Shown piece by piece: positions 24,855 through 51,451 of a stretch of DNA of 63,745 nt. The notes beneath the pieces are model-generated. The model made no database searches. It saw only the letters and a program-made list of their open reading frames with translations, and was not told the DNA's origin. The translations under genes were made by a program, and so were the position numbers. The stretch's first letter is position 1. Each line of letters starts with the position of its first letter. Source of the stretch: a bacterium ADurb.Bin243 (GTDB taxonomy: Bacteria > Muiribacteriota > UBA9980). The stretch covers positions 1 to 63,745 of the forward strand of contig MWBZ01000018.1 in NCBI GenBank assembly GCA_002069765.1. Direction: 5' to 3'.

Positions 24855-24881
24855 AAATATTAACGGGGAATTTTTAAATTT

Positions 24882-25550: not shown

Positions 25551-25570
25551 TTTAACTTATTATTATTTTA

Positions 25571-25599
25571 TTGACATTTAATTAATAATATAGTATTAT
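25571..25599 (+). promoter_or_regulatory. promoter for the vWA/tubulin locus
   Basis: TTGACA (25571-25576) and TATTAT (25594-25599) with a 17-base spacer. It is the best promoter upstream of the large locus and gives a leader of about 340 bases before the first ATG at 25948. Confidence 0.65.
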
Positions 25600-25605
25600 C
25601 AATTT

Positions 25606-25947
25606 TAAATTTAAGCAGTTTGGGTTAACCAAGTTCTTTTATTTAATTTTTTATGCTTGGATAAAGAAAAAATGAATAAAATTCATGATTTCAATAATAG
25701 ATTATTCTTATCTTACGCACATTTAGAAAGAAAATGTTCAATGCACACTGCAGGCATTATAGTACATTTTCTTATTATTGCCTTTTATGAGGCATTATAT
25801 TCATTTACCTTTAACATAAACATTAATATTTCTCTGTCGCTATCGTTATACAAGAAAATTACAAAATTTAGTTTTTGACGAAACAATTTTCTCAAAAACA
25901 ATTTTAGTTTGGATGAATTCAGTTAATTTGTCGAAAGGAATCGTCGT
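25606..25947 (+). other. long AT-rich leader of the vWA/tubulin locus
   Basis: About 340 bases between the promoter and the first gene. A 73-codon TTG frame (25657-25878) has no ribosome-binding site and a low-complexity C-terminus, so I do not call it. GAAAGGAA just before 25948 is the vWA-gene ribosome-binding site. I see no known riboswitch. Confidence 0.4.
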
Positions 25948-28900
25948 ATGAAAAATAAAATTTTTATCAGATCATTATTTGCGGCATTTTTGTTTTTATT
26001 TTTATCTTGCTTTATATGTTCAGCCCAGAATGCCGCACCCGAAGCCGGTGACGGTAAAATTATAACGCTAGACATAGTTTTGCTCATAGACCAATCCGGA
26101 AGCATGCGCGGCAGTGATCCTAAAAAACTCAGATCCGACGCTTCAAGGCTATTCGTTAACCTATGCTCTGAAACCGATCGTGTAGCAGTGGTAGGGTTTG
26201 GAAATGACGCGGTGCAAATTTATCCTCCCATGCAAAAAAATGAGACCGGCGTTACTAGAACTCCGCTCGAGCCGTGCAAAAACCCCGTCAAATTGAAGAT
26301 TATTGAAGCGATAAAGAAAAATATTAAAGACAACGAGAATCATACATCCATTCACAGGGCCCTCGAAGAGGCTCTGGCGATATTAAAATTCAACAATTCT
26401 CTTGGAAAATCAGAAACGATACCTATAGTTGTAATGCTTACCGACGGGCAGATCAAAGGCAGCGGCGACCTGCCGCCATCCACCAGCATTGAAAAAGCGA
26501 ACGCGAGCATCGATAATTCTCTCGAAGAATTAGGCAGGAACGGCGTAAGGATCATGACTATAGGCCTGGGCGAAAAATATGACGCCGAATTGCTTAGAAA
26601 AATATCGAATGAAACTAACGGTTCCATGTATGAAACTAAAAACCCAGCCTTGCTGGTTGACGCTTATCGCAAAATATTCCTCGACATATCTGACCGGTTC
26701 ATGTATATAAACAGCATGAAAGGCGATTTGCTCAAATTTTCATATCCGGTGAGCCTTAACGAAAAAGACGCCGTCATACTTGTCGCTAATAAAAGCGCCG
26801 TCGCGGCCGATAATTTCGTGACTCAGAAATCCCTTACGCTAAACGATCAGAAGATCATGTCGTTATTCGAAGATAAATCAATACTATATGATTTTTCGAG
26901 GGTTTTCAATCCGGCGAAAGGCAAACTGGCTATCGATTATAAATTCAATTCCAACATCGATTTCGACCTGTTTCTGATCAAAAATATGGCCATGCATATT
27001 AATTTACTTGAACCAAAGATGTCGAGCGTCGACTATTACGAAACCGATACTATGCCCATCAAGATCCAGCTTTATAGGATCGATGGAATATCCATGGCCA
27101 GAACAAAATTCAAGATCCAGCTTTCGATAACCGCTCCGGACGGGTCGCAGGAAACGATCGAACTTGAGCGTAATAACGATATTTTTACTGGCGAGTTCGT
27201 TCCGCGCATGCCCGGTTTGTATTACATGAATTTTGCGACCAGACTTCTCGAAGAAAGCTATGAATTTGAAAACGTCAAGCAATTTACAGTATCGGTCCTT
27301 CCCAAATCAGCTCTTACCGTTAAAATTAAAGAACCTTCCACCGGCCTTTTCAAGTATACCGCCGGCTCAAGCCTTCGCGTGGCGGCGGAAGTTCTGGTCG
27401 ATGGTTACGCCGCTCCGGACGATCTCAAGAATCTTATCGTGACCGCGAGCGTTTCTTCGAATGTAAGAGTGGTCGATGAAATCAATCTTGATAAAAAAAG
27501 TTCGGACAAATTGTATCAGGGCAAATTAACCCTTAAAACACCGGGAAAAATGAGGCTGAAAATGTCGGCCACGGCTGATAAATGCAAGGCAACCGCCGCC
27601 GAGTTCGACATCGACGTAATATCTGAGCCGACTTTAAATATAACAAGTCCGATAAATAACACTTTATACAAGCCGAACGGTTTTGAAATAAAAGTAAAAT
27701 TAGACGGCGTTAATTATGGAGTGCAGAAAGAATTTACTATATCGGCAAACCTTATAAACAAAAGCGGAAGCGGCGAGGTAGCCCTAAAATTTAAAAAAGA
27801 TCAGGACGAGCCGGGATCTTATATTTCTGACCAGCTTCCTAAAAGCGAAGGAATATATGAACTTGTGGCTTCTACGACCTTTCTGGATAAAACCATAATG
27901 TCGGCCCCTGTGACTTTTTTTGTTTATAATATTGACAGCCCGGTCCTCGGCGTCACTCCGGGGTCCGCAAGCGCCAGAAAACCTTTGCTGGTTTCCGCTA
28001 AATTGATCGAAAGCGGCAATAAGGGAAATTACGGCGTTAAAGTGAATTGCGAGGTCGTAAAACCAAGAAAAAGCAAGACTTCGAAAGAACAGATAATCAA
28101 GCTTGTACTGAAGGACGACGGCAAGAATGGTGATAAAAAGGCCGGAGACAGTGTTTACAGCTCTCTATTCGACGAAACGGCAACGCTGGGAACTTACGAG
28201 TTCAGGGGCCGTGCTTATTACGCAGATCTTCAGATACCGGAGGAATATAAATCATACAACGCAGTAAACACGGTAAAGGCAGGCATTAGTTATTACATAG
28301 AAGTCGAAGAGGCAAAAAGGGGCGAAAGCGATACCGGGAAAACTTATTTTGAAATGGACACACTCAAAAACGATGCCGGATGCTCTGGCAGCGGCCGTTT
28401 CGCGCTCAATGTCAAGGTAACAAAAGCGAAGCGTTATTCGATAACTTTTAAGACGCCAAACACAGCAGATATAGACATTTATTACTCCGAATCAGGGAAA
28501 GAACCATCCCATGAATTCAGCGATAAACTAAATGAAATAAACAACTCTTATATTTTCACTTATGAAGTGAAAAAAGGCGACAGAAATATTTCGGTTCCCA
28601 TTGAAATTTTATTACACGATGAAGAGGGTAAGCTAAAAGATGCTTCCGAAAAAATATATATAAAAGGTGAAACATATGTTCCGATGTCGCCGTGGTCTAT
28701 CATAATACTGCTGGCGCTAGTTTTTATGCTTGCAAGGCGTTATTTTACGCTTACCAAGCAGGAATTTCAATACGAGATCAAAATATTCGATAAATCCGAT
28801 TCACTGATAACCAACGTTAAAAATTCCAAGATCGTTAAAAATATTAAAATACCATTCACTAAAATAATCAATCTGGCAGGCTCCGATAAACTTGAATTTG

Positions 28901-29175
28901 CGTTCAGTCTTGATATTGAAAAACTAAAGAAGCACGAAGAATCGGCTGTAAAAATTTTACCCGCGGCCGGTCATTTTAAGGTATTCTGTATCGATTACGA
29001 CGAAAATAAATGGCAGATTAAAATGAATAAAAAATTCGACGATCTTGTCGAAGGCGAAAAATGGTATAAAAAACCTTCAACCGATAAAGAATCACTAAGC
29101 CTGACTTCAAAAATAACGGTTGAAGAAGGTTTAGAAATTTATACGAATGAGTTTATAATCAAATTTAATAAATAA
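25948..29175 (+). CDS. exported von Willebrand A domain protein with C-terminal membrane anchor
   Basis: 1075 residues. Signal peptide 1-26 (cleavage after CSA). The vWA domain spans about 38-250, with the metal-ion site DQSGS at 48-52 and the later VMLTDGQIKGSG. The middle (about 270-880) looks like a string of beta-sandwich, Ig-like domains, with clear repeats such as ITSPINNTLYKPNGFEIKVK. A single membrane helix follows near 905-930 (SPWSIIILLALVFMLARRYF). A cytosolic beta-rich domain of ~140 residues ends the protein. It is thus placed to bind a partner outside the membrane and pass a signal or force inwards. First gene of the eleven-gene locus; the next gene starts 25 bases later. Confidence 0.88.
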   Translation: MKNKIFIRSLFAAFLFLFLSCFICSAQNAAPEAGDGKIITLDIVLLIDQSGSMRGSDPKKLRSDASRLFVNLCSETDRVAVVGFGNDAVQIYPPMQKNETGVTRTPLEPCKNPVKLKIIEAIKKNIKDNENHTSIHRALEEALAILKFNNSLGKSETIPIVVMLTDGQIKGSGDLPPSTSIEKANASIDNSLEELGRNGVRIMTIGLGEKYDAELLRKISNETNGSMYETKNPALLVDAYRKIFLDISDRFMYINSMKGDLLKFSYPVSLNEKDAVILVANKSAVAADNFVTQKSLTLNDQKIMSLFEDKSILYDFSRVFNPAKGKLAIDYKFNSNIDFDLFLIKNMAMHINLLEPKMSSVDYYETDTMPIKIQLYRIDGISMARTKFKIQLSITAPDGSQETIELERNNDIFTGEFVPRMPGLYYMNFATRLLEESYEFENVKQFTVSVLPKSALTVKIKEPSTGLFKYTAGSSLRVAAEVLVDGYAAPDDLKNLIVTASVSSNVRVVDEINLDKKSSDKLYQGKLTLKTPGKMRLKMSATADKCKATAAEFDIDVISEPTLNITSPINNTLYKPNGFEIKVKLDGVNYGVQKEFTISANLINKSGSGEVALKFKKDQDEPGSYISDQLPKSEGIYELVASTTFLDKTIMSAPVTFFVYNIDSPVLGVTPGSASARKPLLVSAKLIESGNKGNYGVKVNCEVVKPRKSKTSKEQIIKLVLKDDGKNGDKKAGDSVYSSLFDETATLGTYEFRGRAYYADLQIPEEYKSYNAVNTVKAGISYYIEVEEAKRGESDTGKTYFEMDTLKNDAGCSGSGRFALNVKVTKAKRYSITFKTPNTADIDIYYSESGKEPSHEFSDKLNEINNSYIFTYEVKKGDRNISVPIEILLHDEEGKLKDASEKIYIKGETYVPMSPWSIIILLALVFMLARRYFTLTKQEFQYEIKIFDKSDSLITNVKNSKIVKNIKIPFTKIINLAGSDKLEFAFSLDIEKLKKHEESAVKILPAAGHFKVFCIDYDENKWQIKMNKKFDDLVEGEKWYKKPSTDKESLSLTSKITVEEGLEIYTNEFIIKFNK

Positions 29176-29200
29176 AAAATGAAAGGAAAGGTATCAGGTT

Positions 29201-29785
29201 ATGAAAAATACCACGATGGCTTTTTTATTTGTAGTGATCGTTTTATTGATTTCATTTTTAACTCCGGGCGGCGATTTAGCCCGGGCCCAGGATTCTGAAA
29301 ATGCCTCTGAATCGGAAACGGTTTCCGAAACGGACCCTGTTTCTGATACTCCCACACCACAGGTAAAAGGCGGAGGTGAAAAAGGTGTAGTTGATAAAGT
29401 AAAAATCTTTTTCGATTCATTGAAAAATGAAACAAAATGGGTGAATATTCAAAACGCTTTTATGGGCGCAGTGGCTGGCGAAAACATACCTAAATTAGTC
29501 GGAGTGACAGCAGTTCTTATATTCATAGGTTATATACCATGTTATTTTGCCATGGGAAAAATCGACGTAAACCTCGCTCCCGAAACCGTCGTCTCGCAAT
29601 TTTATAAAATTTTTATTTTCTGTTTGTTCGCGGGCTGGACCACTTCTATTTATTTCACAAAAGACATTATGAGAATTTTTAATCTGTATGTGACCATAGA
29701 ATTTTTTATGGGTCTGATCTATATGTTTTTCATTTTCGAGGCGTTCAGTTTAAAATCTTCGGCCGATGCTGAAAGCGATGACTAA
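29201..29785 (+). CDS. small polytopic membrane protein of the vWA/tubulin locus
   Basis: 194 residues. A signal-like segment (AFLFVVIVLLISFLTPG, ending LARAQ) is followed by a Glu/Ser/Thr-rich exported linker (about 30-60). Three hydrophobic segments lie in the second half: LVGVTAVLIFIGYIPCYFAM, IFIFCLFAGWTTSIYF and TIEFFMGLIYMFFIFEAF. I recognise no family. AAAGGAAAGG precedes the ATG. The signal-plus-acidic-linker layout recurs in the gene at 38075, suggesting two related membrane subunits. Confidence 0.72.
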   Translation: MKNTTMAFLFVVIVLLISFLTPGGDLARAQDSENASESETVSETDPVSDTPTPQVKGGGEKGVVDKVKIFFDSLKNETKWVNIQNAFMGAVAGENIPKLVGVTAVLIFIGYIPCYFAMGKIDVNLAPETVVSQFYKIFIFCLFAGWTTSIYFTKDIMRIFNLYVTIEFFMGLIYMFFIFEAFSLKSSADAESDD

Positions 29786-29871
29786 TAAATTTTTATTACG
29801 GATCATTATTGATTAAAAACGATTTTAATTTATAAAATATTATTTTTTTGATTGAAAGGTGTGAATAAATT

Positions 29872-32800
29872 ATGCAATATGTTGGAAAATTTGATGCTAA
29901 AGAAATAAATACCGATCTAATAGAAAAATTAGACGAGAAAAATTTTGAGCAGGTTCCAACGTTATATATTGGGTTGGGTGGAACAGGAAAGGATATATTG
30001 CTTAGAATGCGCGAAAACCTTTTTTTAAAGTATGAAGAAAAATTTAAAGATGACGAACTTTTCCCAATAAAATTTTTATATTACGATCTCGATCAAAAAT
30101 CCGCTCAATATGATGACCGTGGGATTTATAGCGACGATTATTTTAAACGGTTTTCTTTTACGGATGACGAATTATTACTCATAAAACCCGATACAGCTAA
30201 AACGCTTGAGCTGATAAAGAAAAAACAGCCTAATGTTTCAAATATTTCAAAATGGATATCTCCAGGACTTCAATCGATGGATACTTCGATAGGAGCAGGT
30301 CAACAACGGCAAATAAGCAGATTATCTTTTTTTACATGTTATGATGAAATTGAAAGAGCGGTAAAATCAAAATTACGCGAGCTGGGAACAATAAATACTG
30401 GCACAAAACACGGAAGTGACCAGACCTTTAGAATAGTTCTCGTTTTTTCCGTTGCCGGCGGAACCGGCTGCGGTTCGTTTGTTGATATGGCATTTTTATG
30501 CAAGCAATTATTAAAAGACGATTCAAATACTGCTAATGCTAAACATGAAATAATATCCCACGTTGTTCTACCCGGTGCTTTTAAAAACGTCACTACCGAT
30601 GCGGACAGGCTCAGTTCTAATGGCTACGCAGCTCTTAAAGAAATAGAGCATTATATGTTCCCAAATAATAACTTTCAAGCCGAATGGATTTACGGTCAAA
30701 AAAAGTCTATTAGCGGGCCTATTTTTAACAGATGCTATATTATTTCAGGTGATAGGTATCAAAATGGTCAGTCTTTCGCTACCATTCAAGAAGTATTCAA
30801 TACAGTCGCTGATTATCTTGTCTGTGAAATTGATTCTTCAACATTCGCTTCACTTAGAAACAGTGCCGTTTCAAACTGTAGCGATTTTTTAAATAACTAT
30901 GTTTTTTCTGAAGTTTCCGATAAAGAACAGGGCACATTTTACACTGACCTCAATTTTTACAGTTGTAAATATTCATCATACGGACTTTCACGCATTGGAA
31001 TACCTAAGGAAAGAATTCAAAAAGCATGCAGCGCACAGCTTGGGCTTGACATAATAAGTAATATCAAAGAAAATTCAATTAAAAAGTTTATGCCTAATGA
31101 AATCGACGACCTTGCGGCTAAATTCGCTAATTCCTTTTTTATATCGATCAATAATGAAAATTCCATGCCGTTCAGAGAATTAACAATGTATTCAAAGTCT
31201 GACAACAAAACAGTGTTCGACATGATCGATGATCTTGTTAATAATTTTATTCAATCGGATTGTTTTAAAAATGCCAACAATTTCGATTCGTTAAAGATTT
31301 ATGATACATTCGTTAAAGATATAATTTCTAAGCTTAATATGAGCGACAATTCAAATGAAAAGGGCGAGTTCGTTAAAAAAATACAAAACAATCTTAACAT
31401 GATAATCGAAGAAAAAATAGAAGGATTGAAAATCGGTGAAAAATTTTGGGAAATATTCTATAATAATAAGCATATAGACAATCATTCTATGATAATTCCA
31501 AATATCAGCACGAATTATGGTATCGAAAAAACTAAGGTATTTTTTAACAAATTAAAGGAAGAAATAGAAAAATTCAAGGCAGCGATCGATTCTGAAACTA
31601 AAAAACTGAACACAAACCTTAGTTTGAACGAATTGAAATCAAAACTGTCCGAGGTCGGTGAAAATATTAAAAAGAGCAATGCTGATTCCGAAAAAAAACG
31701 AAAAGCTCTTGAAGAAATAAGGTCTAAATACGGTGATTACGATGATTTTTTTAAAAAAGGCGATCAGTTTAAAATTGCCGAAATGTTGGGCTTATATAAA
31801 AAGGGACAGGACGCCCTTTCTAAAAAAATTAAAGTCATTGATAAAAATATACAAGATATCAAAAATAAAGAAAATGAAATACTGGCCGAAAATATGCTTC
31901 CTCTCAAGGATATGCTGGTTAAAACTGCCCGCGATGAATTTAAAAGAGGAATATTAATTAAATTAATAAACGAATATTATGATAATTACCTGCTGGAATT
32001 TTTTAAACCTTTTGAAGATGCCAAAAATTCAAAATGTGGCTTTTTACCGATTGTAGCAATAAACAATTACGAGAAAAAGATAAAAGAGATAGAAAATTTG
32101 CTTGAGCAAAGGTATAAATTTTATTCGAATTATAAAGTGCCTCAATCTGTAAAGATAATTAAGGACGGCCGTGAAATTACAGGAAAAGATTTCAAAGGAA
32201 TTATTAAGGATTACTATCAGGAAGTCGCTGATGATTTTACATGCCTTAGTTCCACGGCTTTTTGTGATAACGATAAAAATAAATTCAAAGATTATTTAGA
32301 AGAGTGGAAACGCTCTTACTATAAAAGCAAAGGAATTAATGAAAAAGATCTTAACGAGTTTATAAAAGATATCATTGAAATAACCGATAAACATGATTTT
32401 AACAAATTATTCAATGCTATTAACAACTATGCTGATGAGTATACAAATAAAAAACTTGTCGAAAAGAAAAAATTCAATATATTCACGACCGAGGTAAGCC
32501 GTGATCATGCGATAATAAAAAATCATGAAGATATGATGAAATTAAGCAGTTTTTGCTTTAAACAGGCGTCCGATGTTCGTGGTGCTGCTAATAACCAAAT
32601 TTGCAGATTAAATATCAACTTCTTCAGATGGGTTTTCGGGCACGAAATACTTAAAAATAAATCGGATTTCAGCAATTTCTATAATTCGATATCCAATATT
32701 TTCGTCACTCAAAAAAATGAGGACAGTGTTCATTATTTCAGTGAATTTCACGGATTTCCTCTTTACTTCTGCCACATAGTCGGAAAAGAATTGAAAGATT

Positions 32801-33522
32801 CATATAACAAATTAAAAAAAGATTTTGCCCGTCCTCTGCATATTGAAAAAGATAATGATAAGTTCCATGATCTGATTCCGATATTTGATTTTTCAACGGT
32901 GAACGAATACAGAAATAAATTAAAAATCGGGTTGATGTCAATGCTGTTTAATGTCTTGAAATATGATCCTGATGACAATTCATTTATATTTAATTATCAG
33001 CGTGCCCTTGGTGATGCAGAAGATAAAAAAACTTTAAAACTCGGTCAAATGGCTCTGGAAGAGATGGATGAGACTATAGTTCACTTAAAAAAGAGCTTAT
33101 CCGTCAAGGATTATCTTGAAAGCCAATACAGGAATGGTGAAGAATTTAAATATAACGGCAGAATATTAAGTGAAAAAGGAAAAGGAAAACTTTATTTTGC
33201 GCTAATATATCTCAATCGTCTGATACTGGACAATAATAATAGCATTAAAGATGAAATGCAAAACCAGATAAATAAAGATAATAGTGTCAGGGCTATAAAG
33301 GGTAATGTGGACAGCCTTTTAAGAGATATAATACAAAAAGAAATAGATGCGGCTCATATCAGCCCGAATATCCTCGGTGAGATGAAAAAATACGATCTTA
33401 AAGATATTGAATGGGAAAAAGCTCGGGTACTCTACAAAGCTGAAATCTTCGACTGGATATACGAAGACAAACCCGCCGCGGCTATAAAGTTCAGGGCTGA
33501 AGACGGAGATTTTAAAGATTAA
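29872..33522 (+). CDS. tubulin/FtsZ-like GTPase protein (Tubulin_2-like), 1216 residues
   Basis: The N-terminal ~400 residues carry tubulin-superfamily nucleotide motifs: IGLGGTGKDIL (33-43) in the position of the first loop, and the tubulin signature AGGTGCGSF (195-203) after a hydrophobic strand (IVLVFSV). ISGDRYQNGQSFATIQEVFN lies where the nucleoside-contact helix is expected. About 800 further residues are mainly helical, with a coiled coil at about 560-690 and many Lys/Glu. No signal or membrane segment, so it is cytosolic. Very large bacterial tubulin-like proteins of this type are known from genome surveys, next to vWA and membrane proteins. The gene looks AT-richer than most of the window. 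It is the probable filament or motor of the locus. Confidence 0.82.
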   Translation: MQYVGKFDAKEINTDLIEKLDEKNFEQVPTLYIGLGGTGKDILLRMRENLFLKYEEKFKDDELFPIKFLYYDLDQKSAQYDDRGIYSDDYFKRFSFTDDELLLIKPDTAKTLELIKKKQPNVSNISKWISPGLQSMDTSIGAGQQRQISRLSFFTCYDEIERAVKSKLRELGTINTGTKHGSDQTFRIVLVFSVAGGTGCGSFVDMAFLCKQLLKDDSNTANAKHEIISHVVLPGAFKNVTTDADRLSSNGYAALKEIEHYMFPNNNFQAEWIYGQKKSISGPIFNRCYIISGDRYQNGQSFATIQEVFNTVADYLVCEIDSSTFASLRNSAVSNCSDFLNNYVFSEVSDKEQGTFYTDLNFYSCKYSSYGLSRIGIPKERIQKACSAQLGLDIISNIKENSIKKFMPNEIDDLAAKFANSFFISINNENSMPFRELTMYSKSDNKTVFDMIDDLVNNFIQSDCFKNANNFDSLKIYDTFVKDIISKLNMSDNSNEKGEFVKKIQNNLNMIIEEKIEGLKIGEKFWEIFYNNKHIDNHSMIIPNISTNYGIEKTKVFFNKLKEEIEKFKAAIDSETKKLNTNLSLNELKSKLSEVGENIKKSNADSEKKRKALEEIRSKYGDYDDFFKKGDQFKIAEMLGLYKKGQDALSKKIKVIDKNIQDIKNKENEILAENMLPLKDMLVKTARDEFKRGILIKLINEYYDNYLLEFFKPFEDAKNSKCGFLPIVAINNYEKKIKEIENLLEQRYKFYSNYKVPQSVKIIKDGREITGKDFKGIIKDYYQEVADDFTCLSSTAFCDNDKNKFKDYLEEWKRSYYKSKGINEKDLNEFIKDIIEITDKHDFNKLFNAINNYADEYTNKKLVEKKKFNIFTTEVSRDHAIIKNHEDMMKLSSFCFKQASDVRGAANNQICRLNINFFRWVFGHEILKNKSDFSNFYNSISNIFVTQKNEDSVHYFSEFHGFPLYFCHIVGKELKDSYNKLKKDFARPLHIEKDNDKFHDLIPIFDFSTVNEYRNKLKIGLMSMLFNVLKYDPDDNSFIFNYQRALGDAEDKKTLKLGQMALEEMDETIVHLKKSLSVKDYLESQYRNGEEFKYNGRILSEKGKGKLYFALIYLNRLILDNNNSIKDEMQNQINKDNSVRAIKGNVDSLLRDIIQKEIDAAHISPNILGEMKKYDLKDIEWEKARVLYKAEIFDWIYEDKPAAAIKFRAEDGDFKD

Positions 33523-33581
33523 CGCATTCAAGTATTGTAATAAAATTAAAGTTTTATATCGCCTACCGGAAAGAGAATTTT

Positions 33582-39670: not shown

Positions 39671-39709
39671 TGAATTCAACTTATTTGCTTTCTAGAAGGT
39701 GTATTTCAG

Positions 39710-41758
39710 GTGTCCAGAAAAATAAAGAGCTGCCCTTACCATGAATGCGGCAATAAAGAAATTATAATCTCAGAAGGAAAGTATTACTCTTATTGCGGCG
39801 AATGTAAAAAATTCGTCGTAAACTGCGAGGCATGCAAATCAGTCAACAGGATCGACGCCATATTTTGCCGCTGCTGCGGGCGCGGGATCACTTTTAATAC
39901 CGGCGCTCTTTATTATGAGCCAAAAGTCAACCACCGTAAGAACGGCATAGTATGCATGCGGTTCGAAGATTTCGAGTCTAGGCCCAACTACGAGTGGAAA
40001 TTAAACGATAAACCTCTGGCGGCTCATATACATGAAGACGGCTTTAACATCGCGTCCAACTGGATTGTTGGTTATGACTACATTATTTATATTCTATGTG
40101 ATACAAGACGTAACGATAGTTTAGTTAAAAACCGTTATGAGTTGTGCTTATGTTCAATAAGCGAGAAAAATCCAGGAAGCAGAAGGTTAAAATTAGAAAT
40201 TGAAGAACTTCCTTCAGAACACAACTTTAAAGATAGCGAAAGCGAAACACAATACGATTTTCATTTGTATCTTTATTACGGCCGCGTATACATATCGACG
40301 CCATACAGAATAATCGACATCGGTATGGATCTTAACCAAAATACCGACGCCAGTGTTTTGAAATGCTTTGATAAATATTCTTCTCTGAAGGATACCGAAT
40401 TGGGCCACAGCAATAAGAACTTTATTTCGTCTAATATAGCGATGACGCCATATTGTTTCATATTTGCCGTTAAAAATGAAGAAACCGGCTTATCGAGAAT
40501 AATATTCCTTAATTCGGAATCTTCAATTAAACATGAGATATCAAATGTGATTGTGAAAAAAAACATCACCCAAAACGATGAAACTCAATATGATTTTATC
40601 TCAAAAACTAAATATGTTCAGCAACAAAAAGACTATAAATTATATGAATTTGATGAAACGTTCGTATCGCTTCTTCATGACGGGCAGAACTCGTTCTACT
40701 TCGCAGTAAATTCATGCTCTGAGATGAATGATTCAAACGCAAGGATTCTTGAACTGAAATTCGACCCCAAATCTAATTTTAAAAAAATCGAGTCGATCGG
40801 TTTCATTGATATTGAAGGCGCAATCGGCCGGGAAATTGATTTTAATGTAAAGTCAGGGCGAAATTGCTTTAATCTGGCCTTATATCAGGACAAATCTTCG
40901 GATAAAAACCATCTTTTATTTGCCAGCGGTTATCGAGGATATTTTGTAAAACATATGTCAAAAAAATTGAATCCGGATTTTAAAGAGTATATTTTCTTTA
41001 AAAACGATTCAGAGCGTAAATTAAAAAATATTCCATTCATCAATTTATATATAGGCTCAGGCGCTAATTATCACGGCACTATATGCTGGAACAAGAACAA
41101 AGAAAGTTCGCAGGCCTTCATAATACAAATAACCGGAACCGGTAATTTTAAATTTAATGATTCGTCATCGGTAAAAGAAATCAATGAAATCGAAGGCGAG
41201 GCGTTAACTATTAACTTTAAAAATGGCGAATCTGGATGCTTTTTCATAGGCCTTAAAAATGGTGGCGAAAAAATATTATTTTATTTAATGCCAGGTGATC
41301 ATTTTTTCTCTGAAAAATCAGATATAGCGACAATAACTTCAAAAATACGCCATATAATCTATTTAAATAATAAAATATACCTGCTGTCTGATTGGGGACT
41401 TTATTGCATGGAATACACGCGAAACGAGGATATCGCTGAATTACTGAAAAATATCGATGCGTTCTATAAGTTTTGCGAATTCAAGAAAATACCTCAGGCT
41501 AATTATATTCACATAGCAGAGAAAATGAGCAAACTCGTAAAAGTTAACAATACGTCGAAAGAAATAAAATTAGCTATATACATTATAGAACAAGAATTTT
41601 ATGGCGTAACCTCCAAGATTAACGAATTTAATGAAAAAATTAAAAATTCCGACGTAAGCGAAATTAATATAGCTGATATCGAACCTATAAAAAACCTGGA
41701 AAAAGGCCTTAAAGAATTTTTAAATGCCATTCCAAAAAAATACAAAAAAAATGATTAA
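39710..41758 (+). CDS. double zinc-ribbon protein with beta-propeller-like body
   Basis: 682 residues from GTG 39710, preceded by AGAAGGTG. Two zinc ribbons occupy the N-terminus: CPYHECG ... YCGECKK (residues 6-32) and CEACKS ... CRCCGRG (40-60). The remainder to about residue 570 is rich in beta strands with recurring hydrophobic-Tyr patterns (YIIYILCDTRR, VYISTPYRIIDIGMD, IYLLSDWGLYCMEY), suggesting a propeller. The last ~100 residues are helical. No signal or membrane segment. No family recognised. The zinc-ribbon start is shared with the Hsp70-like protein and with the protein at 46569, so it may mark a docking role within the locus. Confidence 0.72.
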   Translation: MSRKIKSCPYHECGNKEIIISEGKYYSYCGECKKFVVNCEACKSVNRIDAIFCRCCGRGITFNTGALYYEPKVNHRKNGIVCMRFEDFESRPNYEWKLNDKPLAAHIHEDGFNIASNWIVGYDYIIYILCDTRRNDSLVKNRYELCLCSISEKNPGSRRLKLEIEELPSEHNFKDSESETQYDFHLYLYYGRVYISTPYRIIDIGMDLNQNTDASVLKCFDKYSSLKDTELGHSNKNFISSNIAMTPYCFIFAVKNEETGLSRIIFLNSESSIKHEISNVIVKKNITQNDETQYDFISKTKYVQQQKDYKLYEFDETFVSLLHDGQNSFYFAVNSCSEMNDSNARILELKFDPKSNFKKIESIGFIDIEGAIGREIDFNVKSGRNCFNLALYQDKSSDKNHLLFASGYRGYFVKHMSKKLNPDFKEYIFFKNDSERKLKNIPFINLYIGSGANYHGTICWNKNKESSQAFIIQITGTGNFKFNDSSSVKEINEIEGEALTINFKNGESGCFFIGLKNGGEKILFYLMPGDHFFSEKSDIATITSKIRHIIYLNNKIYLLSDWGLYCMEYTRNEDIAELLKNIDAFYKFCEFKKIPQANYIHIAEKMSKLVKVNNTSKEIKLAIYIIEQEFYGVTSKINEFNEKIKNSDVSEINIADIEPIKNLEKGLKEFLNAIPKKYKKND

Positions 41759-41785
41759 TATCATTCAGGGCGGTGTGGTCGATAA

Positions 41786-43618
41786 ATGTATGAAAACTGT
41801 CTTGACATCAAGGAAAATTTCAAAAAATTAAGTAGTTCTGAAATAGAGATACTTAAATATATTTTCACGCCAGTCGAATTCGAGTCGAGCTCATTAAATA
41901 AATCAGGCCATATTAAAATAAATAACTTTGAAGCGGGTCATCCGAAGCAATCTGAATCTTCGGGTTCTAGAATTTCAATAATTAATATCTCTAAAAATAT
42001 CATAAACAAGATAAGGCTTCCTTTAAATAAAGAATTCGAAGGTTTTTTCGCGATATATATTAAAGATGAATGGCTTGAAATAAATACCTCGGCTTTTAAT
42101 AAAAGCGTTGAAATTTATTCAATAGACGTCATCCATTCGGACAGAAGTTCCTTGATAATATGGATATCTAAAGGCTGCGGCATAATAGATGTTCAAGTCG
42201 GCGTCAATGAATTGTATTTGAACGATGGCTTGAATTCGACTGAAATATTCATGCATGGCGAAGAAGTATCATACTTTTATTCTGCGATTTTTCAAAATGA
42301 AGCACAGAAACGCGTTGCGCCATTATTCAAACTGAGCTCGTCATGGAAATACTTTAAGCCGGTAAATTTTTACAGTAATGATTATGTCGAGATCGCTAAA
42401 AATAATGAATATCAGAGGTCGAAGATCGTCATCGGCCTGACCGGAGGATCAAAGTTCAATAATTATGAGGTGTTTTCCAGAAGAGGATATGTAAAAAAGA
42501 TTGCTTTTACAGACGAAGAAGCCGACAGGGTAATTATAAGATTCACTGATAACTTCATCAAACTCGATTACAACGATGACTTTGAAGACATAATTGTTTT
42601 GAAAATTTTTGGAGTAGAATATGGCTTCAAAATTAAATTAAACAAAATAGGATTGGTCTGCGAGCAAAAAAAACTGATAGATCAAAAAAAATATGAATTG
42701 GCTCCGGTAAAATATGACGGCGAAGAAATATATATTTTTTTTGACTACGCTTATCCTGATTATAAATACCCTCAAAATTTTTTTGTTCAATTTTCATTTC
42801 CGATTCAGCCGGCTACTAAAAAAATTTCGCTGGAACTTTCATCGTTTGAAAACAGTTCAGGCGTAGAATTCGAATGGCGCGATCCTGACAATTTATGTGT
42901 TAAATTGAAAACAGTGAACGCACCTAAAATCAGCGAACTGAACAATTTGAATATGTTAAAAAAAAAATCGGAAGTGGAATTAAAAGAAATTCATACCGGC
43001 CAGAAAAGGTTTTTAAAATTCGAATATGCAATAAGATACTCTCCCGCGAAGATCAGCGAGATTAATATATCGGCCGTTGAAATTAATTACCCGGTCACGT
43101 TTAAAATATGGAAATATTTTTCTAAATTTGAAGCGGGTAATAATATAGTTTTTTTAGACGAGCTTGCCGCCGTTTTAATCACCGTTAAAAATATCGTGGA
43201 TTTTCCAATTTTAATGAGGAATTTTTCGTTTTTTACCGGAATTAAAAATAACACGATCATCGACAGCGACCTATTATCTAAAACTATGATCGAAGGCCAG
43301 TATAAAAAAGTATTGCCCCCGGATAACGGTTTAAAAGATAGCCATAGCGTTGAATTGAGGCCGAAGCTGTCGTGCGAATGGCGATTCGCTTTTATTTATA
43401 ATTATTATAAATTTTTCGAGGTGCCTGATCTTTGTGTTCATTCGGATTTAACCGTAAAAATTTATGACGGTTACAGGCCGGTTGAAGTTAAAAAGCCATG
43501 TTATTTTATTAATTTATCGCAGATAAATTTTATTGTGAAAATCTACGGTCTTGTTTTATTAGTGGTTTTATTGGCGATAATATTCGCGATAGCCAGATTA
43601 TGGGTGATCAAAGTATGA
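41786..43618 (+). CDS. tail-anchored beta-rich protein of the vWA/tubulin locus
   Basis: 610 residues. No N-terminal signal; one membrane helix at the very C-terminus (about 586-607, YGLVLLVVLLAIIFAIARLW), so it is tail-anchored with the bulk in the cytosol. The body is beta-rich, probably several sandwich domains (KYPQNFFVQFSFPIQPATKK and similar). The general style resembles the middle of the Hsp70-like protein at 33582. GGGCGGTGTGG before ATG 41786 is the only ribosome-binding candidate. The next gene starts inside its stop codon (ATGA at 43615). Confidence 0.68.
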   Translation: MYENCLDIKENFKKLSSSEIEILKYIFTPVEFESSSLNKSGHIKINNFEAGHPKQSESSGSRISIINISKNIINKIRLPLNKEFEGFFAIYIKDEWLEINTSAFNKSVEIYSIDVIHSDRSSLIIWISKGCGIIDVQVGVNELYLNDGLNSTEIFMHGEEVSYFYSAIFQNEAQKRVAPLFKLSSSWKYFKPVNFYSNDYVEIAKNNEYQRSKIVIGLTGGSKFNNYEVFSRRGYVKKIAFTDEEADRVIIRFTDNFIKLDYNDDFEDIIVLKIFGVEYGFKIKLNKIGLVCEQKKLIDQKKYELAPVKYDGEEIYIFFDYAYPDYKYPQNFFVQFSFPIQPATKKISLELSSFENSSGVEFEWRDPDNLCVKLKTVNAPKISELNNLNMLKKKSEVELKEIHTGQKRFLKFEYAIRYSPAKISEINISAVEINYPVTFKIWKYFSKFEAGNNIVFLDELAAVLITVKNIVDFPILMRNFSFFTGIKNNTIIDSDLLSKTMIEGQYKKVLPPDNGLKDSHSVELRPKLSCEWRFAFIYNYYKFFEVPDLCVHSDLTVKIYDGYRPVEVKKPCYFINLSQINFIVKIYGLVLLVVLLAIIFAIARLWVIKV

Positions 43619-46563
43619 AAAATATATATTTTTACTGCAACTATAAAAAAAGTATAGCCATGGTTTTCGATGAAAACCACAATCCCGAAAAAATATCATT
43701 GTCTGACGAATCGTCTGTCGATTATTTCGAGAAAGAGCATGAAATCAATCTCGTTGAAATGATGGTCGATTTAAAAGTTAAAAAGAACTACAGCTTTTTT
43801 TTAAACGAATTATTTTCGAAAATTATATTGGGAATTTTAAAAGACGTCGGCGCAATACCTCTCGATAATATATTTCTGACTTTTGATATCGATTCAGAAG
43901 CGCTGGCTAAATGCCCGCCATATTTTTCTGATTATAAATTTAAATTAATAAGTATTTTTGACGTTTTCGATAAATATTCATCGCTAATGCCTTCATTTAA
44001 CGGAATTAACTTTAATTTTGATTTTTCTTCAATGGGTCCGAACGATAAAAAAATCATAGGCGGAAGCTTCTGGAGCATATTAGATAAAATCAGAGTTGAA
44101 CATTTTAATGACGATAATGTTGAAAATAATGAAAAAATATTTCATAAGTGCCGTGAAAAATATATCGAGCTTCTGGCTACATTACGTTCGAAATCAGGTT
44201 CCGGAGAAGATTTTCGCGACGATATCGCGCACCTTTCAATATTAAAAACGCTCGCAGGCTCTGAAAAATATAAGGGGAAAACCATATACAAAAGCGGTCT
44301 TACAGAATGTTTTCCTTTAATTAAAGATGATTTTATCGATCGCGACGACTTGAAGGAAATTTCTGATTTATTTAAAAATTACGCTTTATTAAACGAAAGT
44401 AATATCATTTTAGAAGCGCAAGTCAGGCAGTCCGAAATTTTAAGGCGCGAGCAGGAAGAGAAACGGCGGCAGGAAATAGAGGTCCGCCGCAAAGAAGAAG
44501 AAATAAATAAAGGGAAAAAAACGCCCCAAAAAGAAGAAACTGCTGCCGGCGGAAATACAGATGACAAAGACGCGAAAGACGACGACGAAAATGAAAAAAA
44601 GAATAATAAAAGAAAACTTATATCTAAATTTATCGTTAATTTTTTAAAATTTGCTTTTGCTTTACTTATCATTGGGCCTCTTTATTATTTCCTGGCGTTG
44701 ACGCCTAATTTATTCGAATCTGGCGAATTCAACCATCTGGCTTTTCAATTCGCCGGCCATTCCGTTGCGGCAATTCTGTTGATTTCAGCATTCAGTTTTA
44801 CAAATAAGGTTTTTTATAAGTTTATCAGCGTCGCGGCGGTTTCAGGTATCTATTATTATGTCTGCGATAGTTTTTTGATCGGCTGTTATAGTTCGCTCGG
44901 CTTTGATATACCTTTTGAATCTACCTTCTGGCTATCGGCAATACCGTTTATAACTTCGATATTACCTTTGCTTTTGCTCGGAGGAAATTACTTGAGAATT
45001 TGCAAAACGGCGTTGCTGACGGTTTTCAATAACGTTTTTTCCGCTGTCGCCGTCATTTTAATTTATCTTATCGTCAGCTTATCCGTACTCGAGTTTACAT
45101 CCGCGGTCGATTCGCTCGCCGTTTATAGAAGCCGCAGGCAAAATATAGAAATGCTCAAAAAAGTGGCTATTGGCGCCGGAGTAGTTGTAGCCGCTTCTTA
45201 CATGACCCCTCTGGTTGGCTCCACCACTGTTTTAAAATATTTACCTATGGCGGTAAACCTTTATAAAACCGTCAAAATTTTGAAATCTAAAATAGAACTG
45301 GTAATGACCTTTATCGAACTTGGCAAACAAATCAGGCAATTCGATAAAGAAAATCCCTTCTCGAGTATCGATGATATACTTAAAGCGGGCAAGAAAATTC
45401 CTCAGCTTAAAGATTATGCCAACGCCTGTCAGAAAGTAATCGATGAATATGAAAAATTCGCTATAGAGGCGAGGAAAATTCTCGATTCTTTAGAATCAAT
45501 TGGAATAAACTCCCAACTCAGCGCAGAATATAAGACCATCATCAGTAAAAAGTGTGAAGAACTACAAGTAAAAATATCGAGTATAGGCGAGGATAAATCT
45601 AAAATAGAAGAAAAAATCTTTAAACTACTTAAAGATGAAGAAAAAGAAAATAATAAAACTCCGGCCAATTCTATCCATAATTCAAATATGCCGAAAAAAT
45701 CGTCACCCGAAGGCAGCAATCCGGTCGTCTTGAAGCACCCCGATAAAACGGAAGTAGCTGAGGCGGCCGAAAGCCGCGAAACCCTCATTAATAAAGTAAT
45801 TTCCGTCAATGACGGTTCTGACGAAATAGCTGCCGCCGTCGGAAAAGATATCGTACCGGTTAATAAGTCGGTGGGTGAAGCTGAATTGTTATTCAAAGCA
45901 GTCAGTAATAACGACACATCTGAAATTGCCGCCTTATTAAAAAAAGGAATTGCCGTCGACGCGACGAATGAAAATGGAATGAGTCCGCTGATGAGCGCGG
46001 TTAAAAACGGCAGCATGGAAGCGGTCGGCTTATTGCTGGAAGCATCAGACATCGAATTGCGTAATGACAAGAAAATTAACGCACTCGGTATGGCAGTTAC
46101 GGCCAATAATATCGAAATTGCCAGGCTATTGATTGAAAAGGGCGGCGCGGCAGTAAACTGCTATTTATGCAATGATAATCAGACACCGTTAATGCTGGCT
46201 ATAGGCAAATATGAAGTTGAAATGGCAAGGTTATTAATTGAAAAAAACGCCAGCCTTACTGCAACAAATAAATACGGCTGGACGCCACTGGCCTATGCGT
46301 TGTACAAGAAAGACGCTGAAATGGTAAAATTGCTTCTTGATAAAAAATGGGACCCGGCCTCCGACGTTAACGTTAAGATCGGCGAATATACTTTATTAAT
46401 GATGGCGGTCAACTACGACTGCGATGCCGAAATTATTGCGGCATTATTAAACTCTGGCGCCGATATTAAAACGAAAACAAAAAAAGGATTAACCGTTCTC
46501 GATATCGCTAAAAATAAAAATAATAAAATATATAACCTCCTTAAAAATTTTAAAAGAAGGTGA
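43615..46563 (+). CDS. polytopic membrane protein with N-terminal actin-like remnant and C-terminal ankyrin repeats
   Basis: 982 residues from ATG 43615, chosen because it forms an ATGA overlap with the previous stop; an in-frame ATG at 43600 is possible. Residues 1-240 run strand-rich then helical, with IYFYCNYKKSIAMVFDENHN and IPLDNIFLTFDIDSEAL in Hsp70-like positions but without catalytic motifs. A charged coiled coil (about 265-325) is followed by five or six membrane segments (about 340-550), another helical region, and a low-complexity linker. Five to six ankyrin repeats (about 760-980) end the protein, for example NGMSPLMSAVKNGSMEAVGL and NQTPLMLAIGKYEVEMARLL. Confidence 0.75.
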   Translation: MKNIYFYCNYKKSIAMVFDENHNPEKISLSDESSVDYFEKEHEINLVEMMVDLKVKKNYSFFLNELFSKIILGILKDVGAIPLDNIFLTFDIDSEALAKCPPYFSDYKFKLISIFDVFDKYSSLMPSFNGINFNFDFSSMGPNDKKIIGGSFWSILDKIRVEHFNDDNVENNEKIFHKCREKYIELLATLRSKSGSGEDFRDDIAHLSILKTLAGSEKYKGKTIYKSGLTECFPLIKDDFIDRDDLKEISDLFKNYALLNESNIILEAQVRQSEILRREQEEKRRQEIEVRRKEEEINKGKKTPQKEETAAGGNTDDKDAKDDDENEKKNNKRKLISKFIVNFLKFAFALLIIGPLYYFLALTPNLFESGEFNHLAFQFAGHSVAAILLISAFSFTNKVFYKFISVAAVSGIYYYVCDSFLIGCYSSLGFDIPFESTFWLSAIPFITSILPLLLLGGNYLRICKTALLTVFNNVFSAVAVILIYLIVSLSVLEFTSAVDSLAVYRSRRQNIEMLKKVAIGAGVVVAASYMTPLVGSTTVLKYLPMAVNLYKTVKILKSKIELVMTFIELGKQIRQFDKENPFSSIDDILKAGKKIPQLKDYANACQKVIDEYEKFAIEARKILDSLESIGINSQLSAEYKTIISKKCEELQVKISSIGEDKSKIEEKIFKLLKDEEKENNKTPANSIHNSNMPKKSSPEGSNPVVLKHPDKTEVAEAAESRETLINKVISVNDGSDEIAAAVGKDIVPVNKSVGEAELLFKAVSNNDTSEIAALLKKGIAVDATNENGMSPLMSAVKNGSMEAVGLLLEASDIELRNDKKINALGMAVTANNIEIARLLIEKGGAAVNCYLCNDNQTPLMLAIGKYEVEMARLLIEKNASLTATNKYGWTPLAYALYKKDAEMVKLLLDKKWDPASDVNVKIGEYTLLMMAVNYDCDAEIIAALLNSGADIKTKTKKGLTVLDIAKNKNNKIYNLLKNFKRR

Positions 46564-46568
46564 TATAA

Positions 46569-47390
46569 ATGCCTGACTCAAATACTGTGATGTTCCTTTC
46601 TGCTGTTTTATCAGAAAACGAGAAAATTGTTGAAGATCTTTTAAATAATGGCACAAATCCTGATGTTACGGATGATAAGGGACGAACCGCTTTGATGATT
46701 GCGGCTTATAAAGGTAATTTTGAAATTGTGAAACTTCTTATGGAAAGAGGCGCTTCGATACACATGACATCAAAAGATGGGCATACTGCTTTGGAAATGG
46801 CACATGCAAAGGGCTTTGAAAAAATCGAAGAGTATCTCGAATTAGAAAAAAATGCTGCTTCACTTATGATTATAAGTCCTTCATCTAGTAAAAAAAGCAG
46901 CACAATTAATAAAAGTAATGAACCCAAAACATATAATAGTGAATTTTTACAACGGTCAGAACACACTAAAAAGGAAAATGTAAAATTAGCATCCAAAGGT
47001 GCTGATGAGATTTATTGTCCGCATTGTGCGGCTGTAATTAAAAGCCAGGCTGTAATTTGTGTAAAATGTGGTTGTATGGTTAGAAATGATACACCTTCAA
47101 ACAGTAATAACGAGCAAAATTCACCTCAAACCGTCATTAATATAAATGGAAACAATCAAAATCCTAAAAACAATTATAATACTTATAACAACAGCGCTCC
47201 ATCATATAATTTAAATAGAGGTGAAAGTTCGATCGTATTGTTTAATGCATATAACAATCATCAAATTATAGTCTCTAATGCAGGATTATATTGCTTTTTA
47301 TTTGGTGCCTTTTATTTAGCATATAAAGGCATATGGGGCCATGCTATATTAGCAATTATTCTTGGCATTTTTACTGGCGGTCTTTCATGA
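46569..47390 (+). CDS. ankyrin / zinc-ribbon / membrane (TM2-like) protein
   Basis: 273 residues, starting six bases after the previous stop with GAAGGTGATATAAATG. Ankyrin repeats cover about 5-95 (KGRTALMIAAYKGNFEIVKL, DGHTALEMAHAKGFEKI). A linker leads to a zinc ribbon near 150-172 (YCPHCAA ... CVKCGC), then an Asn/Gln-rich stretch. The C-terminus is hydrophobic, AGLYCFLFGAFYLAYKGIWG then HAILAIILGIFTGG, resembling small TM2-type membrane domains. It combines the two motifs recurring in the locus, so it may be an adaptor at the membrane. The coding style is more AT-rich than that of its neighbour. Confidence 0.75.
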   Translation: MPDSNTVMFLSAVLSENEKIVEDLLNNGTNPDVTDDKGRTALMIAAYKGNFEIVKLLMERGASIHMTSKDGHTALEMAHAKGFEKIEEYLELEKNAASLMIISPSSSKKSSTINKSNEPKTYNSEFLQRSEHTKKENVKLASKGADEIYCPHCAAVIKSQAVICVKCGCMVRNDTPSNSNNEQNSPQTVININGNNQNPKNNYNTYNNSAPSYNLNRGESSIVLFNAYNNHQIIVSNAGLYCFLFGAFYLAYKGIWGHAILAIILGIFTGGLS

Positions 47391-47436
47391 CTTATATACC
47401 CATTTTTTGCTCATAACATAATTGTTAATCACTATC

Positions 47437-47465
47437 TTGAAAGAGGCTATAGAGCAGAATAATAT
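47437..47465 (+). promoter_or_regulatory. candidate promoter for the kinase gene
   Basis: TTGAAA (47437-47442) and TAATAT (47460-47465) with a 17-base spacer lie in the 122-base gap before the kinase gene, the largest gap in the locus. The kinase may be transcribed separately as well as with the locus. Confidence 0.45.
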
Positions 47466-47512
47466 TCATTTGTTACGATTTTAGTGAATGCAAAAAACAC
47501 TCGGAGGCCTTT

Positions 47513-49474
47513 GTGTCTAACTCGAAATATAAAATAATTAAAAAAATTGGCGAAGGCGGCATGGGAAGCATTTATCTAGGGCATGACCAAATATTGGACA
47601 GGCCCGTAGCGATTAAAGTATTATCTTCAAAACTATCGTCAAATAATGAGTTCATGGAAAGGTTTTTAACCGAAGCCAGAGTGTGCGCTAAGTTAAACCA
47701 TCCGAATATCATTAAAATTTTTGATTTTGGAACGAGCCAAAGCACCAATCAGGCTTATTTTGTTATGGAATTTGTCGACGGCGAAAGTTTAGCCGACCAT
47801 ATTAAATTCAATAAGATTGGGACTGAAAAGAGGCTGGTAGAAATATGTAAAAGCGTTCTGAGCGGTCTTAAATGCTCACACGATCAGGGTATTCTTCATC
47901 GCGACATCAAACCCGAAAATATTTTAATTAATGAGGAAGGGCGTCCTGTAATAATGGATTTCGGGATCGCCAAACTAATCCAAAACGAAAGCATCACCCG
48001 GGCCGGCGAAACCATGGGCACTCCAGAATATATGTCGCCCGAGCAGGTATTGGGCAACGAACTTAACTGCCAGACTGACATTTATTCCTTCGGAATTTTA
48101 ATGTATTATATGATAACGGGAAGATTGCCATTTCAGGCCGATACTCCCATAGCCACAGCCCTGAAACACGTTAATGAAGCGCCGATTCCACCATCAAAAT
48201 TCAATAGTTCGATGTCGCACGAACTTGAAAATATTATTTTAAAGGCAATTCAAAAAAATAAAAGTTCGAGATATCAAAATGCTAGCGAAATTATTAAAGA
48301 TCTTGAATCGCTTTACGGCCAGAATATTGGCTCAAATATTCCGGCTTGCGAAATTAAGCCTATAAAAACGGATAAATTCGATGTCTATAATTTGGGTGAT
48401 CAGAACCAGAATGTCGACGCCTCTCAGCCTGCTCAAAATGCCAAAAAATTAACTACAAACGGCCAGCCTCATGCGATTCAAAACGCCGAAAAAACCACGG
48501 AGATAAAACCATCAATAATAAGCTTTCATGATATTATAGTCAAATCGATCGAAGAGGAAAAATTAAACTTTCATGAGCTGTTATTCGATGCAATCACCGA
48601 TAACGATACAGTAATTTTTAATTTTTTAATCGACTTTAAAATACCTATCGACGTTATCGGAGAAAACAATTCAACACCGCTGATGCATTCGATAAGGTCT
48701 AATTCTAATGACATCTTTGATTTACTTATTTCTAACAAAGTAGACGTTAATTTTAAAAATAAAACAGGTGAAACGCCCTTAATGATAGCATGCGCTGTCG
48801 GCGATTTGGAAACCGTGAAGATCCTTATTAAAAAAGGCGCGAATCAGAACATTAAAAATTCAAAAAACGAAATAGCTTTTAATTACGCTGAAAACAAGGG
48901 GTATTCAGAAATAACCAATTATCTGTTGAATATTTCTAATACAATCTCGGAAACAAATGACATCGAAGAACCGGTGAACTCTAAAAATTACCGAAACGGC
49001 AACTTGTCGTTAAATGAAATTCTTCAGGAAAATATTGCAAACGGAAATTTAAATTCGGGATTTGAATTATTTCAATCTATCGAAACCGATAAACTAGCTA
49101 TCGCAAGCATTTTAATAAAACAAAAACTTGCCGGTGTTAATATAACGGATAAAAAATCAAATACCCCTCTTCATCAGGCGGTTAAATTTAACAATAAAAC
49201 TATGGCGGAATTGTTAATTAATAACGGCGCTAACTTCAACTCCGTCAATAATAACTGTGAAACTCCTCTTCATATAGCTTGCTTTAATGGAAATATCGAT
49301 CTGGTAAGCTTATTGATAGCAAAAACCGATTACAACATTAAAAATTCTAATAATAAAACCGCTCTCGACATCGCAAAAGAAAAAGGCACCAAAGAAATAA
49401 TCAAAATTATAGAAGCTACAATAAAATCCAGAACGCCTTCTTTAATTAACAGATTTATGGACATATTTAAATAA
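47513..49474 (+). CDS. Ser/Thr protein kinase with C-terminal ankyrin repeats
   Basis: 653 residues from GTG 47513 with GGAGG upstream. The kinase domain covers about 6-270: glycine loop GEGGMGSIYLG (13-23), Lys35 in VAIKVL, catalytic HRDIKPENIL (129-138), DFG at 149-151 and GTPEYMSPEQV in the activation region. All catalytic residues are present (PknB/Hanks type). A linker to about 370 follows. Two blocks of ankyrin repeats (about 385-475 and 540-640) include NSTPLMHSIRSNSNDIFDLL and CETPLHIACFNGNIDLVSLL. No membrane segment. As last gene of the locus it is a likely regulator or output, perhaps docking on the two ankyrin membrane proteins encoded just upstream. Confidence 0.92.
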   Translation: MSNSKYKIIKKIGEGGMGSIYLGHDQILDRPVAIKVLSSKLSSNNEFMERFLTEARVCAKLNHPNIIKIFDFGTSQSTNQAYFVMEFVDGESLADHIKFNKIGTEKRLVEICKSVLSGLKCSHDQGILHRDIKPENILINEEGRPVIMDFGIAKLIQNESITRAGETMGTPEYMSPEQVLGNELNCQTDIYSFGILMYYMITGRLPFQADTPIATALKHVNEAPIPPSKFNSSMSHELENIILKAIQKNKSSRYQNASEIIKDLESLYGQNIGSNIPACEIKPIKTDKFDVYNLGDQNQNVDASQPAQNAKKLTTNGQPHAIQNAEKTTEIKPSIISFHDIIVKSIEEEKLNFHELLFDAITDNDTVIFNFLIDFKIPIDVIGENNSTPLMHSIRSNSNDIFDLLISNKVDVNFKNKTGETPLMIACAVGDLETVKILIKKGANQNIKNSKNEIAFNYAENKGYSEITNYLLNISNTISETNDIEEPVNSKNYRNGNLSLNEILQENIANGNLNSGFELFQSIETDKLAIASILIKQKLAGVNITDKKSNTPLHQAVKFNNKTMAELLINNGANFNSVNNNCETPLHIACFNGNIDLVSLLIAKTDYNIKNSNNKTALDIAKEKGTKEIIKIIEATIKSRTPSLINRFMDIFK

Positions 49475-49619
49475 GACAAAATTATTTTATGAGTAATTTT
49501 TTGCTGTTTTTGTAATATATGTTTCAATATTTAAAAAGATGAGTTAATTTTCTGGATTTTTTCTAAAAAAATAAACAATCAAAGCAAAAGTATTGATATT
49601 GAAGTATTTTTAAATTTTA

Positions 49620-51197: not shown

Positions 51198-51451
51198 TAG
51201 TGGCTCCTTTAAGTTTATTATATTCGATTTTCAAACAAAATTCAAGCAAAAATATCTGCAACGGATTTCACATAAAAAATAACATGATTATAAAAACATG
51301 AAAAAATTGCGTATCTATTTTGGAAAAATACTTGATAATTTAAATCAAATGTGATAAAACAGGTTTACGAAGGTTTTCAGGTGTGAGACTAACTTAAATA
51401 TAGGTTGATTAACCCTAAAGTCAGCTATAACCCGTAATCCTGACTTTCTTA
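51198..51451. other. intergenic region between ATPase and R1 copy D
   Basis: AT-rich stretch holding the ATPase gene's ribosome-binding site and presumably its promoter. I see no strong consensus promoter and no gene. Together with R1 copy D it fills the 566-base gap before the FAD oxidoreductase. Confidence 0.4.

Follow-up and report, generated by a model that had tools for sequence, protein, structure and literature searches.

Eleven genes, referred to in order as g1 to g11, lie on the plus strand between positions 25948 and 49474 of the window, which is the whole stretch of 63,745 nucleotides analysed here (Table 1). The genes are tightly spaced; g4/g5, g5/g6 and g8/g9 overlap by 11, 17 and 19 bp, and the remaining gaps measure 5 to 122 bp. 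All of the open reading frames were found at the places and with the sizes given in a first-pass annotation made from the sequence alone, and its descriptions of the single proteins agreed with the profile and hydropathy data. The exported vWA protein with an inner-face anchor corresponds to g1, which has a signal, one late transmembrane (TM) segment and an intact MIDAS. Hydropathy also supported g2 and g6 as two signal-plus-acidic-linker membrane proteins, the 1216-residue tubulin-like GTPase was recovered as g3, and the Hsp70-like ATPase in g4 proved intact (DFGT and DFGGGT). Zinc-ribbon, tail-anchored and ankyrin proteins ending in a Ser/Thr kinase were borne out by their domains and by the C-terminal TM segment of g8, a protein for which Pfam and NCBIfam gave no match. 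A motif check found the activity motifs of g1, g3, g4 and g11 intact, and zinc ribbons were located at the N-terminus of g4, on g7 and on g10.

Table 1. Genes of the cluster and extent of the island, in window coordinates.
Feature	Coordinates	Strand	Description	Support
g1	25948..29175	+	exported vWA protein; signal peptide, MIDAS DQSGS, TM ~911-929, ~145-residue inner tail	Pfam VWA 2.4e-15
g2	29201..29785	+	194 aa; signal, acidic linker, two to three TM	hydropathy
g3	29872..33522	+	Tubulin_2 / FtsZl1 GTPase-fold protein, 1216 aa	Pfam Tubulin_2 6.2e-52; GLGGTG, GGTGCG, NxxAALxE
g4	33582..37214	+	zinc ribbon (N-terminal), beta-rich middle, Hsp70 ATPase (residues ~610-1090), short C-terminal region	Pfam HSP70 1.9e-16
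g5	37204..38091	+	295 aa	without family match
g6	38075..39670	+	signal, low-complexity acidic linker, TM (~111), helical cytoplasmic part	topology
g7	39710..41758	+	N-terminal zinc ribbons and ~620-aa region (682 aa)	profile match 4.4e-12
g8	41786..43618	+	tail-anchored protein, 610 aa; C-terminal TM at 590	hydropathy
g9	43600..46563	+	several TM segments, C-terminal ankyrin repeats	Pfam Ank_2 8.4e-30; hydropathy
g10	46569..47390	+	ankyrin, zinc ribbon, C-terminal hydrophobic segments	Pfam Ank_4 2.2e-16; Zn_ribbon_3 4e-4 (below curated cut-off)
g11	47513..49474	+	Ser/Thr kinase and ankyrin repeats	Pkinase 1.2e-57; VAIK, HRDIKPEN, DFG
accessory island, ~24 kb	25562..49604 (left edge approximate)	.	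eleven-gene cluster	missing at same site in G003, G001, G002

The eleven-gene cluster is a discrete insertion. In the same-genus genome G003, window positions 25534 and 49606 are separated by 61 bp and the flanks are 97-99% identical, and the other two same-genus genomes that were compared, G001 and G002, also lack the island. GC content is 35.5% within the island compared to 47% on its left and 44% on its right, and acquisition of an AT-rich accessory element is the best explanation. Integrase or transposase matches that could mark mobile-element ends were absent among the proteins scanned, and no target duplication was obvious at the junction. A sigma-70-like near-consensus promoter (11/12) was detected at 25571, but matches of this kind arise by chance, as four were expected and two were found. 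Adjoining the island is an AAA-like/PDDEXK-type gene (49620-51197, minus strand) that is found in G000 and G003 and is missing at the junction in G001 and G002. Positions 51391-51685 hold a sequence of about 295 bp with more than 40 further copies in the window's genome and about 50 in G003, which is rare in G001 and G002; this repeat is a dispersed family that has expanded in two close genomes. Because this gene and the repeat (49620-51685) are both missing from G001 and G002 as well, the junction probably took up DNA repeatedly. The flanks (20613-25550 and 51689-54025) encode NanE, hydantoinase, FAD oxidoreductase and ROK-family proteins, and they are possibly an amino-sugar catabolism cluster interrupted by the insertion.

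The first-pass annotation had read all eleven genes as a single trans-envelope machine, a claim that depends on whether the neighbours stay together elsewhere. A Tubulin_2 alignment was scanned against 11.3 million genome contigs and the nearest 80 loci were taken. An Hsp70 gene lies directly 3' of the tubulin gene in eight of these 80 loci (L043, L046, L048, L051, L063, L085, L093 and L100) and again in L136 and L137; in a ninth locus among the 80, L045, the Hsp70 gene opens the block at its 5' end. Tubulin, vWA and Hsp70 genes are kept together in Acidobacteriota, Gemmatimonadota, UBP9, Alphaproteobacteria and Cloacimonadota. The usual order in these relatives, with gaps in single loci, is a zinc-ribbon protein, a vWA protein with signal and TM segment, a small TM protein, the tubulin, a zinc-ribbon/Hsp70 protein and a signal/TM coiled-coil protein. 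The order in the window is vWA, TM, tubulin, zinc-ribbon/Hsp70, (g5), g6 and g7, with the zinc-ribbon protein at the end. In L085, L136 and L137, which were left out when the Hsp70 and partner profiles were built, the set was found in order as far as the contigs reach (that of L137 is shorter). When profiles of the relatives were compared with the window, clear best matches were g1 (8.2e-10 for the vWA profile), g3, g4 (1.2e-37 for the profile of tubulin-linked Hsp70s) and g7. The g7 match is that of a counterpart to the relatives' zinc-ribbon/beta-propeller protein, with an hhalign probability of 96.5% that covers the zinc-ribbon region only; the relatives' protein is a beta-propeller in one of them, and Pfam-type family matches of g7 itself were weak and uninformative. 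The small TM protein g2 shares position and topology with its counterpart in the relatives but has no sequence support (profile E 12), and profile searches gave it no convincing family.

Eight of the linked genomes each carry only a handful of Hsp70-family genes, so that by our own estimate chance neighbours would be expected at far fewer than one in 80 loci. Recurrence of the core set in at least five other phyla shows that it is a real system rather than a chance cluster, and since tubulin, vWA and Hsp70 genes adjoin one another in such distant phyla, these parts belong together, and with the zinc-ribbon genes they make up a single conserved system. The same linkage bears on the idea that two unrelated modules, vWA/tubulin and Hsp70/ankyrin, simply lie side by side. 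As this idea would have it, conservation of the core does not extend to the ankyrin-kinase part, but the idea is refuted for vWA, tubulin and Hsp70, and as an account of the cluster it is considered very improbable. The expectation of a single machine thus held for the tubulin, vWA, Hsp70 and zinc-ribbon genes, which are conserved as one set with a predicted trans-envelope topology, and did not hold for the ankyrin proteins and the ankyrin-kinase. Neighbourhood maps showed neither of these in the Hsp70-linked relatives' loci, and paralogues occur in the window's own genome, where a kinase domain at C87 shares 51% identity with the one in g11 and ankyrin matches number in the tens. The ankyrin-kinase part is therefore probably a local, lineage-specific addition, although it matches the island in composition and in its absence from close relatives. 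The add-on would probably be regulatory. One more ankyrin/zinc-ribbon gene lies just beyond the island (54071-55408).

Many Tubulin_2 loci lack an Hsp70 gene, so Hsp70 is not required by every such tubulin. The tubulins of Hsp70-linked loci cluster without exception in a single 25-row group together with that of the window (support 90/84). On the tubulin tree, 499 of 500 shuffles leave the Hsp70 label less clustered than it is, yet about six changes are needed to explain it; this points to several gains or losses of Hsp70, or to Hsp70 genes that fall beyond the ends of some retrieved stretches. Twelve tubulin-linked Hsp70s are parted from DnaK and HscA by one branch with support of 100/100; finer placement in either the Hsp70 or the tubulin tree is unsafe because both hold long branches. 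Distribution is sporadic, with 7/125 and 3/200 genomes over the cut-off. A search of 40 genomes of the phylum gave no orthologue of g3, and the single Tubulin_2 gene of G003 is not its counterpart.

Alignment of g4 with DnaK brings DFGT, a conserved Lys and DFGGGT into register, so that the nucleotide motifs of an Hsp70 ATPase are intact in g4. The same alignment found no counterpart of the DnaK alpha-helical lid in g4 or in 11 relatives. The Hsp70s of the relatives are built like g4, with a zinc ribbon at the N-terminus, then a middle part that is beta-rich or unassigned, then the ATPase. A canonical DnaK is encoded elsewhere in each of eight linked genomes. The membrane partner downstream of Hsp70 in L045 carries a GrpE domain (7.6e-9, above the cut-off), with weaker GrpE matches for the partner in L100 and L046. 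The best window match of the relatives' membrane-partner profile is g6, at a weak E of 0.0036. The C-terminus of g6 aligns with GrpE in register at an hhalign probability of 0.5%, which is like that of shuffles; profile searches gave weak and uninformative family matches, and the AF2 model is of low confidence (pLDDT 43). By position and topology, g6 is probably the counterpart of the relatives' membrane GrpE-like proteins. Pfam and NCBIfam gave no family for g5. A degenerate Hsp70/actin-like identity for g5 was considered and rejected, as hhalign scores were not above shuffles, a fold search had no match at E <= 0.001 and the AF2 pLDDT was 44. The N-terminus of g9 was also rejected as a relative of g5, with a score no better than shuffles.

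The Tubulin_2 score of g3 is 177.5 bits against a curated cut-off of 27, and the adjoining vWA gene with intact MIDAS (DQSGS in g1) that marks FtsZl1 systems is in place. FtsZl1 proteins were described together with vWA proteins, kinases, a GTPase and OmpA, and membrane remodelling was proposed for them (Makarova & Koonin 2010, PMC2875224). The first-pass annotation had named as established tubulin-like proteins next to vWA and membrane proteins, which that paper does report; it had placed the kinase outside that work, where kinases are in fact already frequent partners of FtsZl1. A Tubulin_2 protein, a vWA protein with signal and TM segment, membrane proteins and a kinase are thus common to both. 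However, the main text of PMC2875224 gives GTPase, kinase and OmpA partners without Hsp70 or DnaK, whereas the window has a zinc-ribbon Hsp70 next to a coiled-coil partner in the membrane, and has neither a P-loop GTPase nor OmpA. The Hsp70-like module had also been thought to stand outside earlier work, which was mistaken, as HSP70 and tubulin had already been reported in the DO-GTPase/GAP1 systems. These have themes of tubulin, HSP70 with GrpE, and kinase, and are classed as conflict systems (Kaur et al. 2020, PMC7159879). The GAP1-N2 systems described there have themes of tubulin with vWA, HSP70 with GrpE, and kinase with zinc ribbon, as well as membrane association, and these resemble the window, where g6 would be a putative GrpE-like partner, but the tubulin, HSP70 and kinase themes are separate in that paper (called non-overlapping in its section 29), whereas the window has tubulin, Hsp70 and kinase in one locus. 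No GTPase family match that would indicate a TRAFAC DO-GTPase was found in the island, where [AG]xxxxGK[ST] occurs only once, in the exported part of g1. Pfam includes models of GAP1-type domains, and none of these matched among g1 to g11. With neither DO-GTPase nor GAP1 found, the window is not filed in that class, though its system may work like it. The core extends the FtsZl1/vWA systems of PMC2875224 and overlaps the themes of PMC7159879. No description of a tubulin - zinc-ribbon/Hsp70 - vWA block was found in the literature searched, and the supplementary tables of both papers may list an Hsp70 neighbour. In the same literature, no functional study was found for FtsZl1 tubulins, which were predicted in 2010. 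No solved structure matched their family profile.

Because of the signal peptides, the vWA domain is predicted to lie outside and the NTPases inside. This topology suggests that the vWA protein may sense or grip outside while GTP- and ATP-driven parts work inside. With its domain outside, one TM segment and an inner tail, the vWA protein would form a membrane anchor or receptor together with the small TM protein. The large Tubulin_2 protein, whose motifs are intact, is predicted to assemble in a GTP-dependent manner on the inner face of the membrane. A dedicated, lidless zinc-ribbon/Hsp70 ATPase, a membrane-tethered coiled-coil partner (GrpE-like in relatives and here probably g6) and the zinc-ribbon protein would then serve, at the membrane, to load tubulin or clients or to unload them. 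The conserved set is read most economically as a membrane-tethered tubulin under the control of a dedicated Hsp70 cycle, a mechanism predicted from gene content. The data show the gene content, the edges of the island, intact motifs and a core that is kept in distant phyla; from these we infer topology, complex formation, polymerisation, an Hsp70-exchange-factor cycle and a physiological role. It is given nearly an even chance that the island was acquired and has at its centre a conserved machine of tubulin and Hsp70, tethered to the envelope, with Hsp70-controlled assembly, serving an inducible stress or conflict response. The role would likely be such a response of the envelope, acting via regulated assembly. 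More tentatively, the conserved set may be a distinct, wide but sporadic system in which a tubulin polymer, tethered to a vWA sensor at the surface, is built up or dismantled by its own lidless zinc-ribbon Hsp70 and a membrane GrpE-like exchange factor; it would be a chaperone-driven cytoskeletal switch at the membrane that lacks the defining GTPase of the relatives described earlier.

Three other explanations draw on the same partners. In the one proposed for FtsZl1, tubulin would deform or organise the inner membrane for remodelling or vesicle forming, with Hsp70 and the kinase as regulators. This would fit the FtsZl1 membership of g3, the vWA, kinase and membrane partners it shares with PMC2875224 and the several membrane proteins of the island, but the proposal is a prediction from context whose topology was doubted by the paper's own reviewer, and Pfam found no known membrane-deforming domain in the island. 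Remodelling is considered unlikely. Anti-phage or interbacterial defence, with cell arrest by tubulin assembly as effector and the vWA protein or kinase as trigger, is rated just as unlikely. An accessory island at a site with a second variable gene (AAA/PDDEXK), the sporadic distribution and the fact that PMC7159879 counts related systems with tubulin and HSP70 among conflict systems all argue for it. However, PADLOC (PADLOC-DB 2.0.0, 2023; g1 to g9 and g11) returned only generic kinase and ankyrin models and no system-specific protein set, no toxin or nuclease domain was found in the island, and a search of 2.9 million viral contigs confirmed no relative. A phage origin of the island was also considered and rejected; besides that search, there was one weak, unannotated phage record (4e-7), and PHROGs matched only a single unnamed family, in the Hsp70 region.

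MotA/TolQ-like and OmpA proteins are encoded directly 3' of the tubulin-Hsp70 block in two Cloacimonadota loci, at 18717-20842 of L093 (MotA_ExbB 4.7e-11, OmpA 1.7e-9) and 12693-14687 of L136 (OmpA 5e-21). Zorya ZorAB is one MotA/TolQ-OmpA motor. In a force-transducing trans-envelope system, a MotA/TolQ-like channel and an OmpA/MotB-like protein would complete the block in relatives and exert a pull on the envelope, and the tubulin would serve as a track on the inside; vWA proteins have been proposed as force transducers (PMC12204202). Unlike these relatives, the window island has neither gene, so force transduction could be common to all only if copies elsewhere acted in trans, and this explanation is regarded as improbable. 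For an Hsp70-controlled tubulin, the conserved partners amount to a defined list of proteins for joint study and suggest that an Hsp70 cycle may act on tubulin at the membrane; named carriers include the culturable Caulobacter ginsengisoli (L085).

Other Tubulin_2 genes occur in different surroundings. The window's genome has two further ones with unrelated neighbours; a second Tubulin_2 gene of this genome (L005, 639-6782) lies near what appears, by reading of the sequence, to be an adenylate-cyclase-like membrane protein. Further tubulins of Acidobacteriota belong to other subfamilies and lack Hsp70. Plasmid relatives are distant Tubulin_2 proteins only. Plasmids of Meiothermus (L024, 9958-18374) and Thermus (L025, 10284-18354) carry a run of vWA, Tubulin_2, a gene of unknown function and BrxL; these tubulins belong to another Tubulin_2 subfamily and have defence-like surroundings, and the Meiothermus run adjoins DUF1156 and Swt1-HEPN genes.
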